In this document: in pieces, positions 53,804-62,710 of the stretch | Layout of the letters: every line of letters starts with the position of its first letter | How positions within the stretch are numbered: position 1 is the first letter of the stretch | NCBI RefSeq assembly: GCF_025195125.1 | Contig: NZ_JAMGSL010000006.1 | Coordinates: forward strand, 107,815-171,814 | Direction of reading: 5' to 3' | From: Streptomyces sp. Je 1-79 | Lineage (GTDB): Bacteria > Actinomycetota > Actinomycetes > Streptomycetales > Streptomycetaceae | Length of the DNA: 64,000 nucleotides | Made by a program: the position numbers and the translations under genes | Notes under the pieces: generated by a model | The model's input: only the letters and a program-made list of their open reading frames with translations | Told to the model about the DNA's origin: nothing | Databases searched by the model: none

Positions 53804-56017
53804 TCACCCCTTCTCCAGGAACTCCTCCCGCTCCTTGTCCAGGAGCGCGTCCAGGGCGGTGCGCAGCTCGGGGTGGTCGTCGAGGTCGGGGTCGGCGAGG
53901 ACGACGGCGGTGGCCTCCTCGCGGGCGGCGGCGATGACCTCCTCGTCGTCGATGACGGTGAGCATCCGGAGCGAGGAGCGGACGCCGGACTGGGCCTGGC
54001 CGAGGACGTCGCCCTCGCGGCGCTGTTCGAGGTCGATACGGGAGAGTTCGAAGCCGTCCAGGGTGGAGGCGACGGCGCCGAGGCGCTGGCGCGCGGGGCT
54101 CGCCTCGGGCATCTCGGTGACGAGGAGGCAGAGGCCGGGGGCGGAGCCTCGGCCGACGCGGCCCCGGAGCTGGTGGAGCTGGGAGACGCCGAAGCGATCG
54201 GCATCCATGATCACCATGGCGGTGGCGTTGGGGACGTTGACGCCGACTTCGATGACGGTGGTGGCGACCAGGACGTCCGCCTCGCCGGCGGCGAAGCGGC
54301 GCATCACGGCGTCCTTGTCGTCGGGGTGCATGCGGCCGTGCAGGACCTCGACGCGGAGTCCGGCCAGGGGGCCCGAGCGGAGCTTCTCGGCGACCTCCAG
54401 GACGGCGAGCGGCGGCCGCTTCTCGGCCTCGTCCTCGGCGGACGCCTTCCGCTTCTGCTTCTCGTCCTCGTCGTCGCCGATGCGCGGGCAGACCACGTAC
54501 GCCTGGTGTCCGTTCTCCACCTCCTCGCGCACGCGCTCCCACGCGCGCGTGAGGAAGTGCGGTTTGTCGGCGGCCGGGACGACATGGCTGGCGATCGGCG
54601 AGCGTCCGGCGGGCAGCTGGTCCAGGACGGAGGTCTCCAGGTCGCCGAAGACGGTCATGGCGACCGTGCGCGGGATCGGCGTGGCGGTCATGACCAGCAG
54701 GTGGGGCGGTTGCCTGCCCTTGCCCCGCAGGGCGTCGCGCTGCTCGACGCCGAAGCGGTGCTGCTCGTCGACGACGACGAGGCCGAGGTCGTGGAACTGC
54801 ACCTTGTCCTCGATCAGCGCGTGCGTGCCGATGACGATCCCGGCCTCGCCGGTGACCAGGTCGAGCAGGGCCTGCCGCCGGCCGGCGGCGCCCATGGAGC
54901 CGGTGAGCAGGACGACCTTGGTGGCGTGCTCGGACCCGCCGAGCATGCCGCCCTCGGCGAGCTCGCCCATCATCTCGGTGATCGAACGGTGGTGCTGCTG
55001 GGCGAGGACCTCGGTGGGGGCGAGCATCGCGGCCTGCCCCCCGGCGTCGACGACGGCGAGCATGGCGCGCAGAGCCACCATCGTCTTCCCCGACCCCACT
55101 TCTCCCTGGAGGAGGCGGTGCATCGGGTGCTCGGTGGCGAGGTCGTCGAAGATCTCCTTGGAGACCTTCTTCTGGCCGTCGGTGAGGGTGAACGGCAGCT
55201 TGGCGTCGAAGGCGTCGAGGAGCCCGGCGGGGGTGGGCCTGCGGGCGACGGCGGGCAGCTGGGTGTCGGCGAACCGGCGGCGGGCGAGGGCGACCTGGAG
55301 GACGAAGGCCTCGTCCCACTTGAGCCGCTGCCGGGCGTCCTCGATGTCGGCCTTCGTACGGGGCCGGTGGACCTTCTGGAGGGCTTCGGGCAGGTCGGTG
55401 AGGCCGCGGTCCTCGCGCAGGGCGGGCGGCAGCGGGTCGGCGAGGCCGGCCCAGCCGGTGGCGGCCAGGGAGTCCAGGGCGATGGCGACGGACTGCTCGA
55501 TGGTCCAGGACTCCAGCTGCTTGCAGGCCGGGTAGATCGGCAGCAGTTCGTTCGCGAACGCCTTGACCGTCTCGTCGCTGCTCTCCGCGTCGAGGAGCTT
55601 GTACTCGGGGTGGGTGAGCTGGAGCTTGCGGTTGAAGACCCCGACCTTGCCGGCGAACATCCCGCGCCGGCCCGGCAGCAGCTCCTTCTGGTGGAAGTGG
55701 ACGGCCCGGCCGAAGAAGACGAGCTGCATCCGGCCGCTGCCGTCGGTGATGGTCACCTCAAGGCGCTGGCCCTTGCCCCGGCCGCCCTTGTTGAAGGTCA
55801 TCACGCGGGCGTCGGCGACCTGCGCGACCACGGTGACGTGCTCGTCGAGCGGCAGGTCGGCGAGGGCGGTGAGCTCGCCGCGCTCGGCGTACCGCCGTGG
55901 GTAGCGGTGGAGGAGATCCCCGACCGTACGCAGGTCGAGGTGGTCGGCCATCACCTTCGCGGTGGCGGCGCCGAGGAGGTTCTTGAGGGGTTCGTCGAGC
56001 ACTGGCACGCGTTCCAT
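53804..56017 (-). CDS. recG: ATP-dependent DNA helicase RecG
   Basis: 737 residues. The N-terminal wedge/OB domain includes LTALADLPLDEHVTVVAQVA; the helicase core has Walker A GEVGSGKT, DEQH box in VVVDEQHRFGVEQR, ATPIPRTVAMTVFG, and the motif VI block QLRGRVGRG. An acidic insertion rich in Lys/Glu (DDEDEKQKRKASAEDEAEKR) lies between the two RecA-like lobes. It remodels stalled replication forks. The ATG at 56017 is the family start (MERVPVLDEPLKN). Upstream lies the divergent Hsp90-like gene. Confidence 0.96.
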   Translation of the reverse strand: MERVPVLDEPLKNLLGAATAKVMADHLDLRTVGDLLHRYPRRYAERGELTALADLPLDEHVTVVAQVADARVMTFNKGGRGKGQRLEVTITDGSGRMQLVFFGRAVHFHQKELLPGRRGMFAGKVGVFNRKLQLTHPEYKLLDAESSDETVKAFANELLPIYPACKQLESWTIEQSVAIALDSLAATGWAGLADPLPPALREDRGLTDLPEALQKVHRPRTKADIEDARQRLKWDEAFVLQVALARRRFADTQLPAVARRPTPAGLLDAFDAKLPFTLTDGQKKVSKEIFDDLATEHPMHRLLQGEVGSGKTMVALRAMLAVVDAGGQAAMLAPTEVLAQQHHRSITEMMGELAEGGMLGGSEHATKVVLLTGSMGAAGRRQALLDLVTGEAGIVIGTHALIEDKVQFHDLGLVVVDEQHRFGVEQRDALRGKGRQPPHLLVMTATPIPRTVAMTVFGDLETSVLDQLPAGRSPIASHVVPAADKPHFLTRAWERVREEVENGHQAYVVCPRIGDDEDEKQKRKASAEDEAEKRPPLAVLEVAEKLRSGPLAGLRVEVLHGRMHPDDKDAVMRRFAAGEADVLVATTVIEVGVNVPNATAMVIMDADRFGVSQLHQLRGRVGRGSAPGLCLLVTEMPEASPARQRLGAVASTLDGFELSRIDLEQRREGDVLGQAQSGVRSSLRMLTVIDDEEVIAAAREEATAVVLADPDLDDHPELRTALDALLDKEREEFLEKG

Positions 56018-56064
56018 TGCACACCACGGCACCGACAACCGTCCCGCAGGCTGTGGATATCTCC

Positions 56065-56094
56065 TGGTCACGTCGGCGCCGCGCCCCCTAGGAT
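56065..56094 (+). promoter_or_regulatory. Candidate promoter of the Hsp90/TPR operon
   Basis: TGGTCA and TAGGAT with an 18-nt spacer lie about 92 nt upstream of the Hsp90-like start, in the 168-nt gap to recG. The -10 fits TAnnnT; the -35 is weak. Confidence 0.35.
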
Positions 56095-56185
56095 GACGCG
56101 TCTCCCCCCGTACCGCTCCGCGATCACCGCCTGCCGGGATCGCCCGACCCGCGCCGGCGCCTGTCCCCCCACCGGCGCAGCGACG

Positions 56186-57997
56186 ATGACTGCTGATCAG
56201 ACACCGCACACCTTCCAGGTCGATCTGCGCGGACTCGTGGATCTTCTCTCCCACCATCTCTATTCGAGCCCCCGGGTCTATCTGCGCGAGCTGCTGCAGA
56301 ACGCCGTGGACGCGATCACCGCTCGCCGTGCCGAGGAGCCGGAGGCCCCCGCGCGGGTCCGGCTGTACGCGGACGGCGACGGTCTGCGCGTCGAGGACAG
56401 CGGAATCGGGCTGACCGAGCGGGACGTGCACAGCCTGCTGGCCACGATCGGCCGCAGTTCGAAGCGGGCCGACGCCGCCGGCATCGCGAGCGCGCGGGCC
56501 GAGTTCCTGGGCCAGTTCGGCATCGGGCTGCTCGCCTGCTTCGTGGTCGCCGCCGAGATCCGGGTGGTCAGCCGCAGCGCGCGTACGCCCGCCGCGCCAC
56601 CGGTGGAGTGGACGGCCCGCGACGACGGTTCGTACACCGTCCGGACGCTCGCGGACGGCGCCCGTACGGAGCCGGGCACGACCGTGTACCTGACCGCCCG
56701 CCCGGGTTCCGGCGAGTGGCTGACCGAGGAGCGGGTGCTCGCGCTGGCCCGCGAGTACGGCTCCCTCCTCCCGTACGAAGTACGGGTCGGGGACAGGCGG
56801 GTCACCGATCTGCCCGCCCCCTGGGACCGGCCGTATCCGAGCCCGGCGGCCCGGCGGGTCGCGCTCGCGGGCCACTGCCGGGAGACGTTCGGCTTCACCC
56901 CGCTCGACTCGATCGACCTGGATCTTCCGCTGGCCGGGATCCGGGGCGTGGCGTACGTCCTTCCGTCGGCCGTCAGCCCCGCCCAGCGCGCCGGTCACCG
57001 GGTCCACCTCAAGGGCATGCTGCTCACCGAGCGGGCCGACGGGCTGCTGCCCGACTGGGCGTTCTTCGTGCGCTGCGTCCTCGACACGGACAGCCTGCGG
57101 CCGACCGCGTCGCGCGAGTCGCTGTACGAGGACGAGACGCTGGCCGGCGTACGGGACGCGCTGGGCGGGGCCGTGCGGGACTGGCTCGGCGAGCTGGCGG
57201 CGGGGGCTCCGGAGCGTCTGGAGGAGTTCCTGGCCGTGCACCACCTCGGGGTGAAGTCGCTGGCCCGGCACGACGGCGAGATGCTGCGGACGATGCTGCC
57301 GTGGCTGCCGTTCGAGACGACGGACGGCCGGCTCTCGCTGGAGGAGTTCGCCCGCCGTCACCCGGTCGTGCACTACACCCGTACCGTCGAGGAGTACCGG
57401 CAGGTCGCCGCGATCGCGACCGCGCAGGGCATCGGCGTCGTCAACGGCGGCTACACGTACGACACGGATCTGGTCGAACGCCTCCCCGAGGTCCGTCCCG
57501 GTACGGCCGTCGCGGAGCTCGACGCCGACACCGTGACCGCCCATCTCGACCCCGTGGACCCGGCGCAGGAGCTGGCGCTCTCGGCGTTCCTCTCGGTGGC
57601 GCGCGCCACGCTGGACCCTCTGGGCTGCGACGTGTCGCTGCGCTCCTTCCACCCGCTGACCGTGCCCGCGCTGCACCTGGACGACCGGGCGGCCCGTCAC
57701 GAACAGGCCCGGGCGGACGCCGAGGAGCGGGCGGACGACCTGTGGGCCGGCATCCTCGGCTCGCTGCGCGGGAGCGCGCCGCGGGCCCGGCTGGTCCTCA
57801 ACCACCTGAATCCGACGATCCGCCGGATCGGTTCGCTCGACGATCCGGAGCTCGCGGGGACGGCCGTCGAGGCGCTGTACGGGCAGGCCCTGCTGATGGC
57901 GCAGCGGCCGCTGCGTCCGGCGGACTCGGCGCTGCTCAACCGGGCGTTCACGGGGCTGCTCGCCTGGGCCACCCACCACGGGGAGAACACGGCATGA
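56186..57997 (+). CDS. Hsp90/HtpG-like GHKL ATPase
   Basis: 603 residues, near HtpG length. All Bergerat-fold motifs are present: LLQNAVDAITA (N box, about residue 37), EDSGIGLT (G1, about residue 72), FGIGLLACFVVA (G2, about residue 112) and GTTVYLTA (about 166). The middle domain keeps an FFVRCVLDTDSLRPTASRES loop that includes the catalytic Arg. The end (NHLNPTIRRIGSLDDPE and ALYGQALLMAQRPL) fits the HtpG dimer domain. There is no MEEVD tail. Weak ribosome site before the ATG. It is the first gene of an operon with the TPR protein (4-nt overlap). Confidence 0.9.
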   Translation: MTADQTPHTFQVDLRGLVDLLSHHLYSSPRVYLRELLQNAVDAITARRAEEPEAPARVRLYADGDGLRVEDSGIGLTERDVHSLLATIGRSSKRADAAGIASARAEFLGQFGIGLLACFVVAAEIRVVSRSARTPAAPPVEWTARDDGSYTVRTLADGARTEPGTTVYLTARPGSGEWLTEERVLALAREYGSLLPYEVRVGDRRVTDLPAPWDRPYPSPAARRVALAGHCRETFGFTPLDSIDLDLPLAGIRGVAYVLPSAVSPAQRAGHRVHLKGMLLTERADGLLPDWAFFVRCVLDTDSLRPTASRESLYEDETLAGVRDALGGAVRDWLGELAAGAPERLEEFLAVHHLGVKSLARHDGEMLRTMLPWLPFETTDGRLSLEEFARRHPVVHYTRTVEEYRQVAAIATAQGIGVVNGGYTYDTDLVERLPEVRPGTAVAELDADTVTAHLDPVDPAQELALSAFLSVARATLDPLGCDVSLRSFHPLTVPALHLDDRAARHEQARADAEERADDLWAGILGSLRGSAPRARLVLNHLNPTIRRIGSLDDPELAGTAVEALYGQALLMAQRPLRPADSALLNRAFTGLLAWATHHGENTA

Positions 57998-60819
57998 CCC
58001 TGACCTTCCAGGCCCTCCGCGAGGCGATGCGGGACAACGCCCAGCAGCCGGAGGGGCCGGCGCGCAACGCGCGCGCCGAGCAGCTTCTCGCCGAGGCGGA
58101 GCTGATCGGTGAACCGCCGGCCGTCATCGAGGCGCTGGGGCACCAGCTCCAGGCGTACAACTACAGCTCCGAGAAGGCGAAGATGTTCGTGCCCTTCTCG
58201 CGGCTGCTGCGGATGTGGGACGACGATCCGTCGGCCTTCGACGCGTACGAGACGCACTCACTGCACTGGGTGTTCAAGTGGGTCTCCAGCGGCATGCTCG
58301 ACCAGCCGCACATCCCGCTCGCCTCGATCGAGAAGTGGCTCGGCGAGATGGAGCACCGCTACCGGCTGGCGGGCCACTCGGAACGGGCCGTGCGGCAGGG
58401 TGAGTTCCGGGTGGCGCGGCACATCGGTGACCGGGAGAGGGCCGAGCGGGCGTACGCGGCCTGGCTGGCGGCCGAGCGGGACCGGATGGCCGACTGTCAC
58501 GCCTGCGAACTGCACGGGCAGGGTGCGTGGTCGGCGGAGCTCGGCGACGACGAGCAGGCTCTGCGGACCTGGGCTCCGGTCCTCGCGGGCGAGCACAGCT
58601 GCGCGCACGAGCCGCACGCGATCCTCGCCTCCTCGTTGCTGCCGCTGGTGCGGCTGGGCCGGGTGGACGAGGCCCGCGCGCACCATCTGCGCGGCTACCG
58701 GCTGGTGCGGCCGATGGAGAGCATGCGGGGCTCGGTGGCGCAGCACATCGAGTTCTGCGCGCTGACCGGGAACGAGGCGCGGGGTCTGGAGATCCTGGCG
58801 GAGCGTCCCGCGTACTTCACCGACGGCGGCGATCCGGACAGCCTGGCGGACTTCCTGGCCGTGACGGCGCTGCTCATGGACCGGATGGTGGCGCTCGGCC
58901 TCGGCGGACAGTCGGTGCCGGGGCCGGCGGGTTCGTCGTGGACCGCCGCCGAACTGGCCGGCCACGCGCGCGTGGAGGCGCTGGCGATCGCGCGACGCTT
59001 CGACGAGCGGAACGGCACGGGGCGGGTCGGCGAGCTCGTACGGGACCGGATGGACTCCCGGCCGCTCCTGGACCGGCTGCCGCTGGGGGTACGGGCGGCG
59101 GGCCCGGTGCCCGCGCGGGCGCGCGTGCCGGAGCCGGTGGCGGAGCCGCGCGACCTGCTCGCGGAGGCGCGCCTGCTGTCTGCGGCACGGAACCCGGCGG
59201 CGCGCGAGGCATGGGCGGCGGTGGGAGCCGCCGGCCTCGAACTGGACGCGCTGGCGCGGGCCGAGGTGGACGACCACCGGGCCATGGCGATGGAGGACGG
59301 TCCGGCGGAGTCGGTCCGGCTGTTCCATCGGGCCGCGGAGGGGTACGAGGCTGCCGGCGACCGGGGTGAGGCGGAGGCCGCCAGGGCCAGGGCGGCGTAC
59401 GCCCACGCGTCCGACGGGCGGCTTGCGGAGGCGACGAGTGCCGTCGAGGAGTCGGTCGCCCGCCTGCTCGCCCTCCACGCGGAGGGAGCGGCGACCCCCC
59501 GCCAGACGGCGGGCGGGCTGCTGAGCCGGGTCCGGGTGGGGCTGCTGCGGCTGCACGACGAGGAGGGCGGGGCCGCGGGGGACGGTGGACCGGGAGCCGG
59601 TGGACCGGCGCGCGGGGAGCCGGCGGACGGGGCCGACCCGGCCGACCGGCTCGCGCGGGCCGTGGACGAGCTGGTCGCCTTCGCCGTTCCGTACGGTGAC
59701 GATCCGGCGGTCGCCGACCGGGTCGCCGAGGCCGAGGCCACCCGGGGCGATCTGGCCGCGCACCGGGGGGACGCCGAGGAGGCGGCCCGTCGGTACGCGT
59801 ACGCCGCGGAGCTCTACCACCGGGCCGGGATGCCCTGGTACGCGGTGGAGCCGGAGGCGCGGCTCGCGCGGATCGCCCTGCACCAGGGCGACCTGGAGAC
59901 CGCCGAGCGGGCGGCCCGGGCCGCACTCGACCACGGCGTGGAGCACGCCGGGGCCGGCGGGCAGACCCGGCTCAGGCTCCGGCTCGCCGAAGTCCTCGGC
60001 GCGGCGGGGCGGTTCGACGAGGCCGCGGCGCACGCCCTGGAGGCGGCGCACTGGGCCGACGAGGCGGGCGAGAGCCAGGGCATCGGCGCGTACGCCCGGC
60101 ACCAGCTGGGCGGTTGGCTGCTGCGGGAGTCGCGGGTCGCGGAGGCGGCGGCGATCCTGGAGTCGGTGCTGCCGGACCTGTCCGTGGAGGAGCACGGGGA
60201 CGGGATGGTCGTCCAGACCCTGTGGTGGCTCGGCGACTGCCTCGCGGCGCTGGACGAGCCCCGGTCGGCGGCGGAGCAGTGGCTGCGGGCGGCGGAGCTC
60301 GCCATGGCGTGGCCCGAGCAGCACGACCACGCGATGCTCGCCAACCTGGCGGCGCAGGCGCTGCTCCGGGCGGAGCTGCGGCCGGAGGCCGCGGCGGCGT
60401 ACGAGCGTGCGGGCGAGCTGTGGAGCGCGCTGGGCGACACCGCGGCGTACGTGCGGACCCTGCGGGTCCGGGCGTGGATCGCGGGCGCGGACGGCGACGG
60501 CCGGGCGCTGATGGACGCGGCGGCGGAGGCCTGCGGCGCGGACCTGGCGGAGCGCGGGGAGACGTACGTCCAGGCGGCGGAGCTGCTCGGGGACACGGAC
60601 GCGGCGGTCGCCCTGTCGTACGCGACGCGGGCGGCCGCGGCGTTCACCGAGGCGGGACCCGACCTGCGGGACCGCCGGACGGCGGCGGAGCTGCTGACGG
60701 GCTGGCTCCACCTCCGGCTGGAGGACAGGACGGCGGCGGCCGCGGCGGCCCGCGCGGTGCTCGCGGAGCACGCCGACTCGGAGGAGGCGGCGGAGCTGCT
60801 CTCCCGCGCGACGGCCTGA
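57994..60819 (+). CDS. Large TPR protein co-translated with the Hsp90-like gene
   Basis: 941 residues with no membrane segment or signal. The first 310 residues carry a Cys/His-rich block (ADCHACELHGQGAW and GEHSCAHEPHAIL) among helical repeats. Tetratricopeptide-like pairs continue to the end (AYAAWLAAERDRMADCHACE; RYAYAAELYHRAGMPWYAVE; AYERAGELWSALGDTAAYVR). A Gly/Ala/Asp linker at about residues 525-550 breaks the array. No catalytic motif was found. The ATGA overlap with the Hsp90 gene means that the products are made in parallel, so a complex is likely. Function unknown. Confidence 0.87.
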   Translation: MTLTFQALREAMRDNAQQPEGPARNARAEQLLAEAELIGEPPAVIEALGHQLQAYNYSSEKAKMFVPFSRLLRMWDDDPSAFDAYETHSLHWVFKWVSSGMLDQPHIPLASIEKWLGEMEHRYRLAGHSERAVRQGEFRVARHIGDRERAERAYAAWLAAERDRMADCHACELHGQGAWSAELGDDEQALRTWAPVLAGEHSCAHEPHAILASSLLPLVRLGRVDEARAHHLRGYRLVRPMESMRGSVAQHIEFCALTGNEARGLEILAERPAYFTDGGDPDSLADFLAVTALLMDRMVALGLGGQSVPGPAGSSWTAAELAGHARVEALAIARRFDERNGTGRVGELVRDRMDSRPLLDRLPLGVRAAGPVPARARVPEPVAEPRDLLAEARLLSAARNPAAREAWAAVGAAGLELDALARAEVDDHRAMAMEDGPAESVRLFHRAAEGYEAAGDRGEAEAARARAAYAHASDGRLAEATSAVEESVARLLALHAEGAATPRQTAGGLLSRVRVGLLRLHDEEGGAAGDGGPGAGGPARGEPADGADPADRLARAVDELVAFAVPYGDDPAVADRVAEAEATRGDLAAHRGDAEEAARRYAYAAELYHRAGMPWYAVEPEARLARIALHQGDLETAERAARAALDHGVEHAGAGGQTRLRLRLAEVLGAAGRFDEAAAHALEAAHWADEAGESQGIGAYARHQLGGWLLRESRVAEAAAILESVLPDLSVEEHGDGMVVQTLWWLGDCLAALDEPRSAAEQWLRAAELAMAWPEQHDHAMLANLAAQALLRAELRPEAAAAYERAGELWSALGDTAAYVRTLRVRAWIAGADGDGRALMDAAAEACGADLAERGETYVQAAELLGDTDAAVALSYATRAAAAFTEAGPDLRDRRTAAELLTGWLHLRLEDRTAAAAAARAVLAEHADSEEAAELLSRATA

Positions 60820-60900
60820 GCCCAGGCCCGAGCACAGGCCCGAGCAAAAGCCTGCGCAACGGCCTGAGCCCAGGCCCGCGCGACGGCCTGAGCGCCCGTG

Positions 60901-60938
60901 GTGGGCGATCGTCCCGTTGGTCGGGGTCGATCGCCCAC
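60901..60938 (+). terminator. Hairpin after the TPR gene
   Basis: GTGGGCGATCG and CGATCGCCCAC pair perfectly over 11 bp, and inner CCCG/CGGG extends the stem around TTGGT. It lies 82 nt after the stop, behind the first repeat block. Confidence 0.65.
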
Positions 60939-60939
60939 G

Positions 60940-61128
60940 TCCCCGAGGCTGAGGCCCCGGCCGCCCCGAGGCTGAGGCCCCGGCACCCCCGAGCGTGAGG
61001 CCCGGCCGCCCCGGAGGCTGAGGCTCCGGCGCCCCCGAGCGTGAGGCTCCGGCCGCCCCCGAGGGTGCGGCGCCGCGCCCTCGGGGCCAAGAGCGTGAGG
61101 CCCGGCCGCCCCCGCGGGTGCGGCCCCG
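60940..61128. repeat. Degenerate minisatellite of 23-27-bp units
   Basis: About seven imperfect copies of a unit like CCCCGAGGCTGAGGCCCCGG run head to tail. Variants have GAGCGTGAGG in place of GAGGCTGAGG. The array ends right at the DAK-gene stop codon. Confidence 0.75.
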
Positions 61129-61129
61129 G

Positions 61130-62710
61130 CTACTCCACGCCGATGAGCAGCGCCGGTGCCCCCGCCCCCGCGTGGTACGTCGTCGTGTCCACCGCCAGGT
61201 ACGTCTCCCGGACGTGCCGTTCCAGGGAGTCCGCGAGCGTCGGCGGGGTCTCGTCGGAGACGATCAGGGTCACCAGCTCGCCCCCCGCCGAGAGCATCCG
61301 GTCCAGGACCGTGCGGGCCGTCTCCGTCAGGTCCTGGCCGATGACCGCGACGTCGCCCTCGATCAGGCCGAGGACGTCCCCGGCCTGGCAGACGCCCGCC
61401 GAGGTGAAGGACTGGTGCTCGGCGACGGCGAGTTCCGCGTACCGGGTCGCCCCCGCCGCGGCCGTCATCGCCACCACGTCCTCGTCGAAGCGCCGGTCCG
61501 GCTCGTGGACGGCCAGCGCCGCGATGCCCTGGACGGCCGCCCGGGTGGGGATCAGCGCGACCCGGATGCCCTCCGCGCGGGCCTGCTCGGCCGCCGCGCC
61601 CGCCGTGTGCCGCAGGCCGGTGTCGTTGGGCAGCAGCACGACCTCGACCGCGTGGGCCCGTCGGATCGCGTCGACGAGCTCGCCGCTGGCGGGCGGCTCG
61701 CCCGGCCCGGCCAGCACGGTCGTCGCGCCCGCCTCGGCGCACAGGCCCGCGAGCCCCTCTCCCGGTACGACCGCCACGACGGCGCGCTGCAGCCGTTCCC
61801 GCGTCTCCGAGACGCCCGCGAAGTGCGTGATGCGGATCCGGTACGGCCGCCCGGCCTCCACGCCCGCCTCCACCGCGGCGCCCGCGTCGTCGACATGGAC
61901 GTGCACGTTCCACAGCCCGTCCCCGCCGACGACGACGAGGGATTCGCCGAGCGCGTCCAGCCGGGCGCGCAGCCGTTCCACGGCCGCGTCCTGTGCCTCA
62001 AGGAGGTAGATCACCTCGAAGGCGGGTCCGCCCTCCGGGGCGCAGTCCGCCGACGAGGGCACGGGCACGGCCCGGTTCGGGGGGCGTACCTGCGCCTCGC
62101 CGGACACCACCTCCACCAGCGCCCCGAGGACCGCCACCAGACCCCGTCCGCCCGCGTCCACGACGCCGGCGCGTTCCAGGACGGCCAGCTGCCCGGGAGT
62201 CGCCTCCAGGGCCGTCCTGGCCCCTTCGTACGCCCCTCTGGCGACCGCCACCAGGCTTCCGCCGCCCCCGCAGGCGTCGGCCGCCGCGGTCGCCACGGTC
62301 AGGATCGTTCCCTCGACCGGGTGCGCCACGGCCTCGCGGGCCGCGCGGGCCGCCGCCGCCAGGGAGCGGGCGAGGTGATCGCCGTCACGCCCGTCGGCGA
62401 GCACGGACGCCATGCCGCGCAGCAGCTGCGAGAGGATCGTCCCCGAGTTGCCCCGGGCGCCGATCAAGGCCCCGTGCGCCATGGCGCGTACCGCGTCACC
62501 CGCGTCGGGGTCGTCCGCCGCGAAGAGCGCCTCGACCGCCTGGGCGGCGGACTCCACCGTCAGATAGAGATTGGTCCCGGTGTCCCCGTCGGCGATCGGA
62601 TAGACGTTGATCGCGTCGATCTCCTCGCGCTCCCGGCCGAGCGCCTCCAGCGCCCGTACGCACCAGGATCGGACCGCCGCTGCGTCGAGGGTCTGCGCGG
62701 TCTGCGGCAA
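61130..62710 (-). CDS. DAK1/DhaL-domain protein, FakA-like
   Basis: 526 residues. The N-terminal kinase-like domain has YPIADGDTGTNLYLTVESAA and GARGNSGTILSQLLRGMASV, the DhaL signature of nucleotide binding. The middle and C-terminal parts match the FakA-type fatty-acid-kinase arrangement. The fatty-acid-binding partner FakB (DegV) is not in the window. A TTG start at 62710 has AGGAGG 8 nt upstream. It lies between the Hsp90/TPR operon and rpmB, and from memory is next to recG and rpmB in relatives. Substrate is uncertain. Confidence 0.85.
   Translation of the reverse strand: MPQTAQTLDAAAVRSWCVRALEALGREREEIDAINVYPIADGDTGTNLYLTVESAAQAVEALFAADDPDAGDAVRAMAHGALIGARGNSGTILSQLLRGMASVLADGRDGDHLARSLAAAARAAREAVAHPVEGTILTVATAAADACGGGGSLVAVARGAYEGARTALEATPGQLAVLERAGVVDAGGRGLVAVLGALVEVVSGEAQVRPPNRAVPVPSSADCAPEGGPAFEVIYLLEAQDAAVERLRARLDALGESLVVVGGDGLWNVHVHVDDAGAAVEAGVEAGRPYRIRITHFAGVSETRERLQRAVVAVVPGEGLAGLCAEAGATTVLAGPGEPPASGELVDAIRRAHAVEVVLLPNDTGLRHTAGAAAEQARAEGIRVALIPTRAAVQGIAALAVHEPDRRFDEDVVAMTAAAGATRYAELAVAEHQSFTSAGVCQAGDVLGLIEGDVAVIGQDLTETARTVLDRMLSAGGELVTLIVSDETPPTLADSLERHVRETYLAVDTTTYHAGAGAPALLIGVE

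Follow-up and report, generated by a model that had tools for sequence, protein, structure and literature searches.

In eukaryotes, TPR co-chaperones such as Sti1/Hop, FKBP51/52 and Cpr6 provide the analogy that we propose here for a bacterial TPR protein working with an Hsp90. On the bacterial side, NCBIfam holds an "HSP90 family protein" model (NF010683/PRK14083) that names no partner. The HTPG subfamily has been divided into groups A, B and C, with Actinobacteria in A and C, and Streptomyces coelicolor has two HTPG copies, of 638 and 615 aa, from different groups (Chen et al. 2006, PMC1525184, available portion of the text). The string "tpr" is absent from the text, and no partner genes are mentioned in that portion. 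The literature matches listed, from a search that left most subscription journals outside its scope, contained neither the Hsp90-TPR pair described below nor an established TPR partner of bacterial HtpG; in their available portions, PMC11687934 names no bacterial TPR partner and PMC3710099 does not describe the pair. PRK14083 itself appeared in one paper of the literature searched, on fish HSP genes.

Here, we analysed a 64,000-nt stretch of DNA from Streptomyces sp. Je 1-79, hereafter called the window, in which an Hsp90 gene is followed directly by one for a giant TPR protein. Across the actinobacteria that were examined, genes of this distinct class of bacterial Hsp90 almost always sit immediately upstream of such a TPR gene.

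Organization of the locus and its Hsp90

The relevant features of the window are the following.

53804..56017, minus strand: flanking gene that we take to be recG, after the initial annotation; divergent, 168 nt upstream of the Hsp90 gene
56018..56185, no strand: intergenic region of 168 nt towards the divergent upstream gene, containing TAGGAT
56186..57997, plus strand: gene of the Hsp90 family protein, 603 aa, NF010683/PRK14083 type, with N-terminal ATPase, middle and C-terminal domains
57994..60819, plus strand: gene of the TPR solenoid protein, 941 aa, beginning in a 4-nt overlap with the stop codon of Hsp90
57994..59073, plus strand: N-terminal module of the TPR protein, residues 1-360, the best-conserved part of the protein
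58495..58686, plus strand: Cys/His block (codons of C168, C171, C203 and H231), a putative metal site
59143..60816, plus strand: C-terminal TPR superhelix, residues 384-941, which evolves faster
60901..60938, no strand: inverted repeat read from the sequence, with perfect 11-nt arms around a 16-nt loop; it lies between the TPR gene and dak, which converge
61130..62710, minus strand: flanking gene, presumably of DAK type after the initial annotation; convergent, downstream of the TPR gene

The coordinates, the 4-nt overlap (ATGA), both protein lengths and the 168-nt upstream gap had been given by an earlier sequence-only reading of this DNA and are exact. The best named match at the locus is Streptomyces sp. 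JH14, with 87% identity. Upstream of the Hsp90 gene, TAGGAT at 56089-56094 is kept in at least 85% of 80 loci, and we take it to resemble a streptomycete -10 box. CIRCE and HAIR elements, searched with motif definitions from general knowledge, are each present in 0/80 upstream regions, where a single isolated HAIR half-site was seen; heat-shock control through either element was rejected on these counts. Beyond the TPR gene, the inverted repeat is terminator-like in its sequence. It sits between two tracts of GC-rich tandem repeats (periods 24 and 23/46, at 60803-60893 and 60941-61130) that lie between the end of the TPR gene and dak.

The Hsp90 is a member of NF010683, matching the model over residues 5-600 with 855.1 bits (cut-off 455). 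In contrast, it reaches 166.4 bits against the canonical HtpG model NF003555, below the threshold of 371, which rules out a plain HtpG identity. Hence, the protein belongs to the Hsp90 family but is no HtpG in the strict sense. With 603 aa, the protein fits the shorter S. coelicolor HTPG copy (615 aa), and it may belong to HTPG group C. In the window's genome, no gene exceeds the HtpG cut-off, and the paired Hsp90 is the only gene found to pass one of the two cut-offs, NF010683 or HtpG; 26/61 genomes searched do carry a gene above the HtpG cut-off.

The ATP-site residues E35, N39, D71, G73, G75, G109, G112, G114 and T165 are invariant in 111/111 distinct pairs, bearing out the earlier statement that the Bergerat-fold motifs are complete, and R310 of the middle domain is equally invariant (111/111). 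We assume, from general knowledge and the alignment with HtpG, that the former are Bergerat ATP-site residues and that R310 is the catalytic arginine. A profile built from 22 relatives aligns with residues 4-607 of E. coli HtpG (2iop; E 3e-47). The predicted model, of moderate confidence (pLDDT 72), matches Hsp90, TRAP1 and HtpG structures across its whole length (best E 1.7e-24). Both the extent of the alignment, to HtpG residue 607, and the whole-length fold matches indicate that the C-terminal (dimerisation) domain is present. Judged from its sequence, the protein is a normal three-domain ATPase. No Hsp90 of the 111 distinct pairs ends in EEVD. This is evidence against the MEEVD route and supports the earlier view that, without such a tail, binding would have to occur in another mode.

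Linkage, shared descent and exceptions

In the window's genome and 60 relatives (61 genomes), a TPR relative lies directly downstream, on the same strand, at 51/51 such Hsp90 loci (60-100% identity), a count that leaves out G028, where only a piece of Hsp90 was found at a contig end. The 58 TPR-module matches in these genomes comprise 51 beside Hsp90, 6 elsewhere and 1 at a contig start (G050:C126). Within the best 80 named loci, the TPR gene comes next in 80/80, recG precedes in 79/80 and dak follows in 69/80; all 12 missing flanks, including the single recG absence, are at contig ends. We also sampled 394 genomes evenly across the class. Hsp90 was found in 46 of them (53 loci), the TPR module in 49 (58 loci) and both in 45, with loci possibly undercounted since the best 3 Hsp90 and best 4 TPR candidates per genome were scored; throughout the surveys, split Hsp90/TPR matches (G010, G038, G039, G041, G042, G701, G762) are one locus each. 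The TPR gene adjoins Hsp90 at 52/53 loci of this class draw, in 7 families. Chance adjacency is ruled out by this count, flanking genes being different at the sites examined. Overall, the three surveys strongly support the operon and the functional partnership put forward from the sequence alone; the contrary outcome named at that stage was that the genes are usually apart in other genomes, and they are together across 7 families. The one exception in the class draw, G382, has an NF010683-type Hsp90 without a TPR neighbour and is a weak member with the lowest score of the 53 (470 bits, cut-off 455).

The spacing of the two genes was measured over 124 loci (L061-L098, L101-L180, L195, L196, L203-L206), a set in which some strains occur twice and which holds 120 distinct Hsp90 sequences and 111 distinct pairs with a long TPR frame. 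From it were dropped L099 (the split pair of G010), L100 (a divergent Hsp90), L197 (an Hsp90 of NF010683 type lacking a TPR match) and L198-L202 (where TPR matches lack an Hsp90). The intergenic gap ranges from -8 to 57 nt with a median of -4; it is exactly -4 nt at 64/124 loci and between -8 and 20 nt at 118/124. The -4 nt overlap recurs in 4/8 pairs examined from more distant families (L283, L284, L286, L289). At the recG site, the TPR frame is split in L068 (G013) and both frames are split in L099 (G010), which suggests frameshifts or decay. The divergent Hsp90 of L100 (8209-10791, G044) is predicted to have 860 aa, has no TPR match in its stretch and scores 278 bits against HtpG (cut-off 371) and 235 bits against the A2 profile.

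The dak-recG distance is 10-419 nt in 31/44 genomes with measurable ends, other families included, and the two genes are separated by the Hsp90-TPR pair in 13/44; the rest of the 61 genomes had no match, matches on different contigs or a partial match (G037, G049, G058, G060). Since dak and recG are close in 31/44, the pair was most likely inserted between the two, facing the opposite way, in a single Streptomyces clade, and its presence at this site is most likely a derived insertion. The sequence-only reading, which had called the pair a lineage-specific insertion, therefore holds for the dak/recG site and fails for the pair itself, whose lineage specificity is rejected by its occurrence in 7 families of the class. 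Other copies of the pair lie at unrelated sites with variable flanks. In one clade, the gene immediately before Hsp90, on the same strand, is DUF4034-like and encodes about 330 aa (17/45 loci, e.g. L078:9668-10672). Of three members scanned against Pfam, one was just under threshold (20.5 vs 21.3 bits) and two had no match; close relatives are found away from the pair as well, including two in G031, and no paper on DUF4034 was found in the literature searched.

The two proteins share their descent. Pairwise distances of Hsp90 and TPR protein correlate with a Mantel r of 0.96 over 111 distinct pairs (best of 1000 permutations, 0.234), and the nearest TPR relative is among the three nearest by Hsp90 in 89/111 cases. 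Five groups are monophyletic in both trees, even with two pairs present in several genomes. Two of them were defined by location, namely the 79 recG-site loci (moderate support, 0.78 and 0.70) and the 18 loci with a DUF4034 neighbour; the other three were hand-picked by host and similarity. The trees thus give no sign of partner swapping between the Hsp90 and TPR lineages. Because adjacent genes share descent anyway, the r of 0.96 speaks for absence of partner exchange rather than for contact.

TPR genes also occur by themselves. In the class draw, 6/58 TPR loci have no neighbouring Hsp90, possibly an undercount with 4 candidates scored per genome, and four of the six belong to genomes in which the search found no Hsp90 of the paired type (G228, G771, G261, G703). 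The TPR module is therefore wider in distribution than the Hsp90. Three genomes of one related genus carry two TPR genes in tandem, with related N-terminal modules and no Hsp90 within the stretch (L198:4946-10155, L199:4376-9609, L200:5690-13727). In G786 (L281:6025-11379), the recG-site Hsp90 is gone and the TPR gene is intact, its start 306 nt from recG; the recG site of this genome, which keeps a second complete pair elsewhere, is a natural case of partner loss. Another arrangement is seen at L278:8532-10609, where the TPR N-terminal module (CxxC...C...H) is fused to a C-terminal YbjN domain (PF10722, 1.2e-16) and the fusion gene overlaps, by 4 nt, a preceding separate YbjN gene (2.5e-26), a second kind of partner; L279:8469-10519 has the same layout. 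The YbjN protein gave 0 matches at E<1 in a sequence search of solved structures.

The TPR protein and constraint on the two partners

Searches with the TPR protein returned 0 matches at E<0.1 in Pfam and NCBIfam and 0 matches in PADLOC; some of its relatives do match Pfam TPR_12, for example L283 (1.3e-12). AlphaFold, run with 23 relatives alongside in the alignment, predicts a long, almost entirely helical solenoid (pLDDT 91.3, pTM 0.86). TPR superhelices match mainly residues 402-926 of this model (LGN, Z 25.4, 319 residues, 5.5 A), so that the N-terminal module is barely probed by these comparisons. A profile search of solved structures also retrieved TPR proteins (E 4.3e-20). The TPR assignment made from the sequence alone is thus supported by predicted fold and profile search, though by no family match, and the product of 57994..60819 would be a TPR-repeat solenoid protein.

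Conservation in this protein is greatest over its first 360 residues. Positions conserved at 90% or more number 42/160 in residues 1-160, 37/100 in 161-260 and 25/100 in 261-360, and beyond residue 360 they fall to 16/260 and 29/321. The Cys/His-rich N-terminal block noted earlier is real: C168, C171, C203 and H231, forming a C-x2-C...C...H motif, are invariant in 111/111 pairs. The motif is kept in 20/21 rows spanning other families and TPR genes without Hsp90, the one row without it being that of L285's second, degenerate copy. These residues are most naturally read as a C3H metal site, and they may well bind a metal.

Median dN/dS, from 800 sampled sequence pairs within the recG-site clade, is 0.141 for Hsp90 and, in the TPR protein, 0.257 for residues 1-360, 0.445 for 401-620 and 0.355 for 621-941; outside the N-terminal module, the medians span 0.355-0.448. 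These ratios indicate that purifying selection acts on both genes. As a matched control, we used eight genomes in which a paired Hsp90 occurs alongside a canonical HtpG, which makes species divergence equal (28 genome pairs, which derive from 8 genomes and are not independent). In the middle domain, dN/dS is 0.124 for the paired Hsp90 vs 0.299 for canonical HtpG, and in the C-terminal domain 0.092 vs 0.240, the paired protein being lower in 28/28 comparisons each time. In the N-terminal domain, the values are 0.195 vs 0.181, with the paired protein lower in 10/28. Hence, constraint on the paired Hsp90 exceeds that on HtpG by a factor of 2.4-2.6 in the middle and C-terminal domains, whereas the ATPase domain shows no such excess. 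A looser comparison (14 canonical and 16 paired sequences) agrees with the matched control. The middle and C-terminal domains of Hsp90 are the parts that hold clients and co-factors, and the extra constraint on them is the pattern expected from a fixed partner or client. Alternatively, the difference could reflect a fixed client, or an HtpG relaxed outside its ATPase domain.

Interpretation and comparison with known systems

We consider that Hsp90 and the TPR protein probably form a direct complex. With a narrower lead, we favour the reading in which the pair is a dedicated Hsp90 chaperone machine, the TPR protein serving as co-chaperone or client adaptor; that it plays this part rather than that of a client is somewhat better than an even bet. 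The TPR protein would be co-translated with Hsp90, as its partner. Its N-terminal alpha module, conserved and probably stabilised by a metal, may dock on the middle and C-terminal domains of Hsp90, and this docking would avoid the C-terminal peptide of the chaperone. The variable superhelix would then recruit one or a few specific clients and could couple them to the Hsp90 ATPase cycle.

The main rival holds that the TPR protein is itself the client, a long solenoid scaffold or signalling protein needing its own Hsp90 as a private foldase. The fixed gene order, Hsp90 then TPR with overlap, fits this well, the constraint on the Hsp90 middle and C-terminal domains is as expected for a single fixed client, and the faster evolution of the TPR protein points the same way. 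However, at the 6/58 TPR loci without an adjacent Hsp90, four of them in genomes without a paired-type Hsp90, relatives of the module manage alone, and the best-conserved part of the protein is one defined module. We regard the client reading as unlikely, though it deserves the most attention after the co-chaperone reading. Binding is expected under either reading; what separates them is whether folding of the TPR protein depends on Hsp90. Less likely again is that the two proteins serve one pathway without contact, for instance in stress or signalling, with the TPR protein as sensor and Hsp90 as general stabiliser. Linkage and co-inheritance alone are no proof of contact, and the third, DUF4034-like gene that precedes the pair in one clade (17/45 loci) would suit a pathway; the coupling by overlap and the domain-specific constraint on Hsp90 nevertheless fit physical contact better.

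Defence systems are known to include Bergerat ATPases and TPR proteins, and an anti-phage or conflict system, made of an Hsp90-like ATPase and a TPR recognition protein, would agree with the faster evolution of the C-terminal half of the TPR protein and with the variable flanks of copies away from recG. We hold it to be quite improbable. The PADLOC matches cover only about 100-125 residues of the generic ATPase part (TmtA and type II REase models; best 3.6e-08) and leave the TPR protein without any, neither protein shows an effector domain, such as a nuclease or protease, in Pfam, and the recG-site copy is stable, with recG adjoining at 79/80 loci, and under purifying selection. A defence system as first choice was rejected on the PADLOC result. 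Lastly, the genes could be ordinary neighbours kept by descent and without functional link, the surroundings of the recG site being conserved too; however, the pair stays together at several unrelated sites and in 7 families while its other neighbours change, and the class draw brings this idea close to refutation.

Coming back to the co-chaperone reading, its fullest form is that this is the first bacterial Hsp90 co-chaperone system, with a metal-knuckle TPR adaptor that is translated with an Hsp90 lineage of its own and docks on the middle and C-terminal domains. Within a wider family of chaperone-associated TPR modules, the adaptor would then represent a single branch; the modules of other branches would act by themselves or together with YbjN proteins, to which, in one genus, they are both fused and adjacent. 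We put this forward tentatively, as falling a little short of an even chance. The linkage points to a helper protein devoted to Hsp90 in some bacteria, a type described to date in eukaryotes. Since almost all members of one Hsp90 lineage have a partner gene next to them, the evolution of Hsp90 co-chaperones in bacteria can be tested directly and cheaply, and the pair also bears on how TPR proteins may bind Hsp90 without MEEVD and on the client of this lineage.

Set against canonical HtpG (NF003555; E. coli 2iop), the paired Hsp90 aligns through all three domains and matches the fold over its whole length, yet it stays below the family cut-off and its middle and C-terminal domains are under a different constraint. 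As to the eukaryotic co-chaperones, yeast Sti1 TPR2AB is among the fold matches of the TPR model, at rank 46, a match that is generic for TPR superhelices. The TPR protein is larger than the eukaryotic TPR co-chaperones of Hsp90. Unlike in the eukaryotic systems, the paired Hsp90 carries no EEVD end and the TPR protein has a Cys/His N-terminal module of its own. If the co-chaperone reading is true, a bacterial TPR-Hsp90 partnership would have arisen independently of the eukaryotic MEEVD system.
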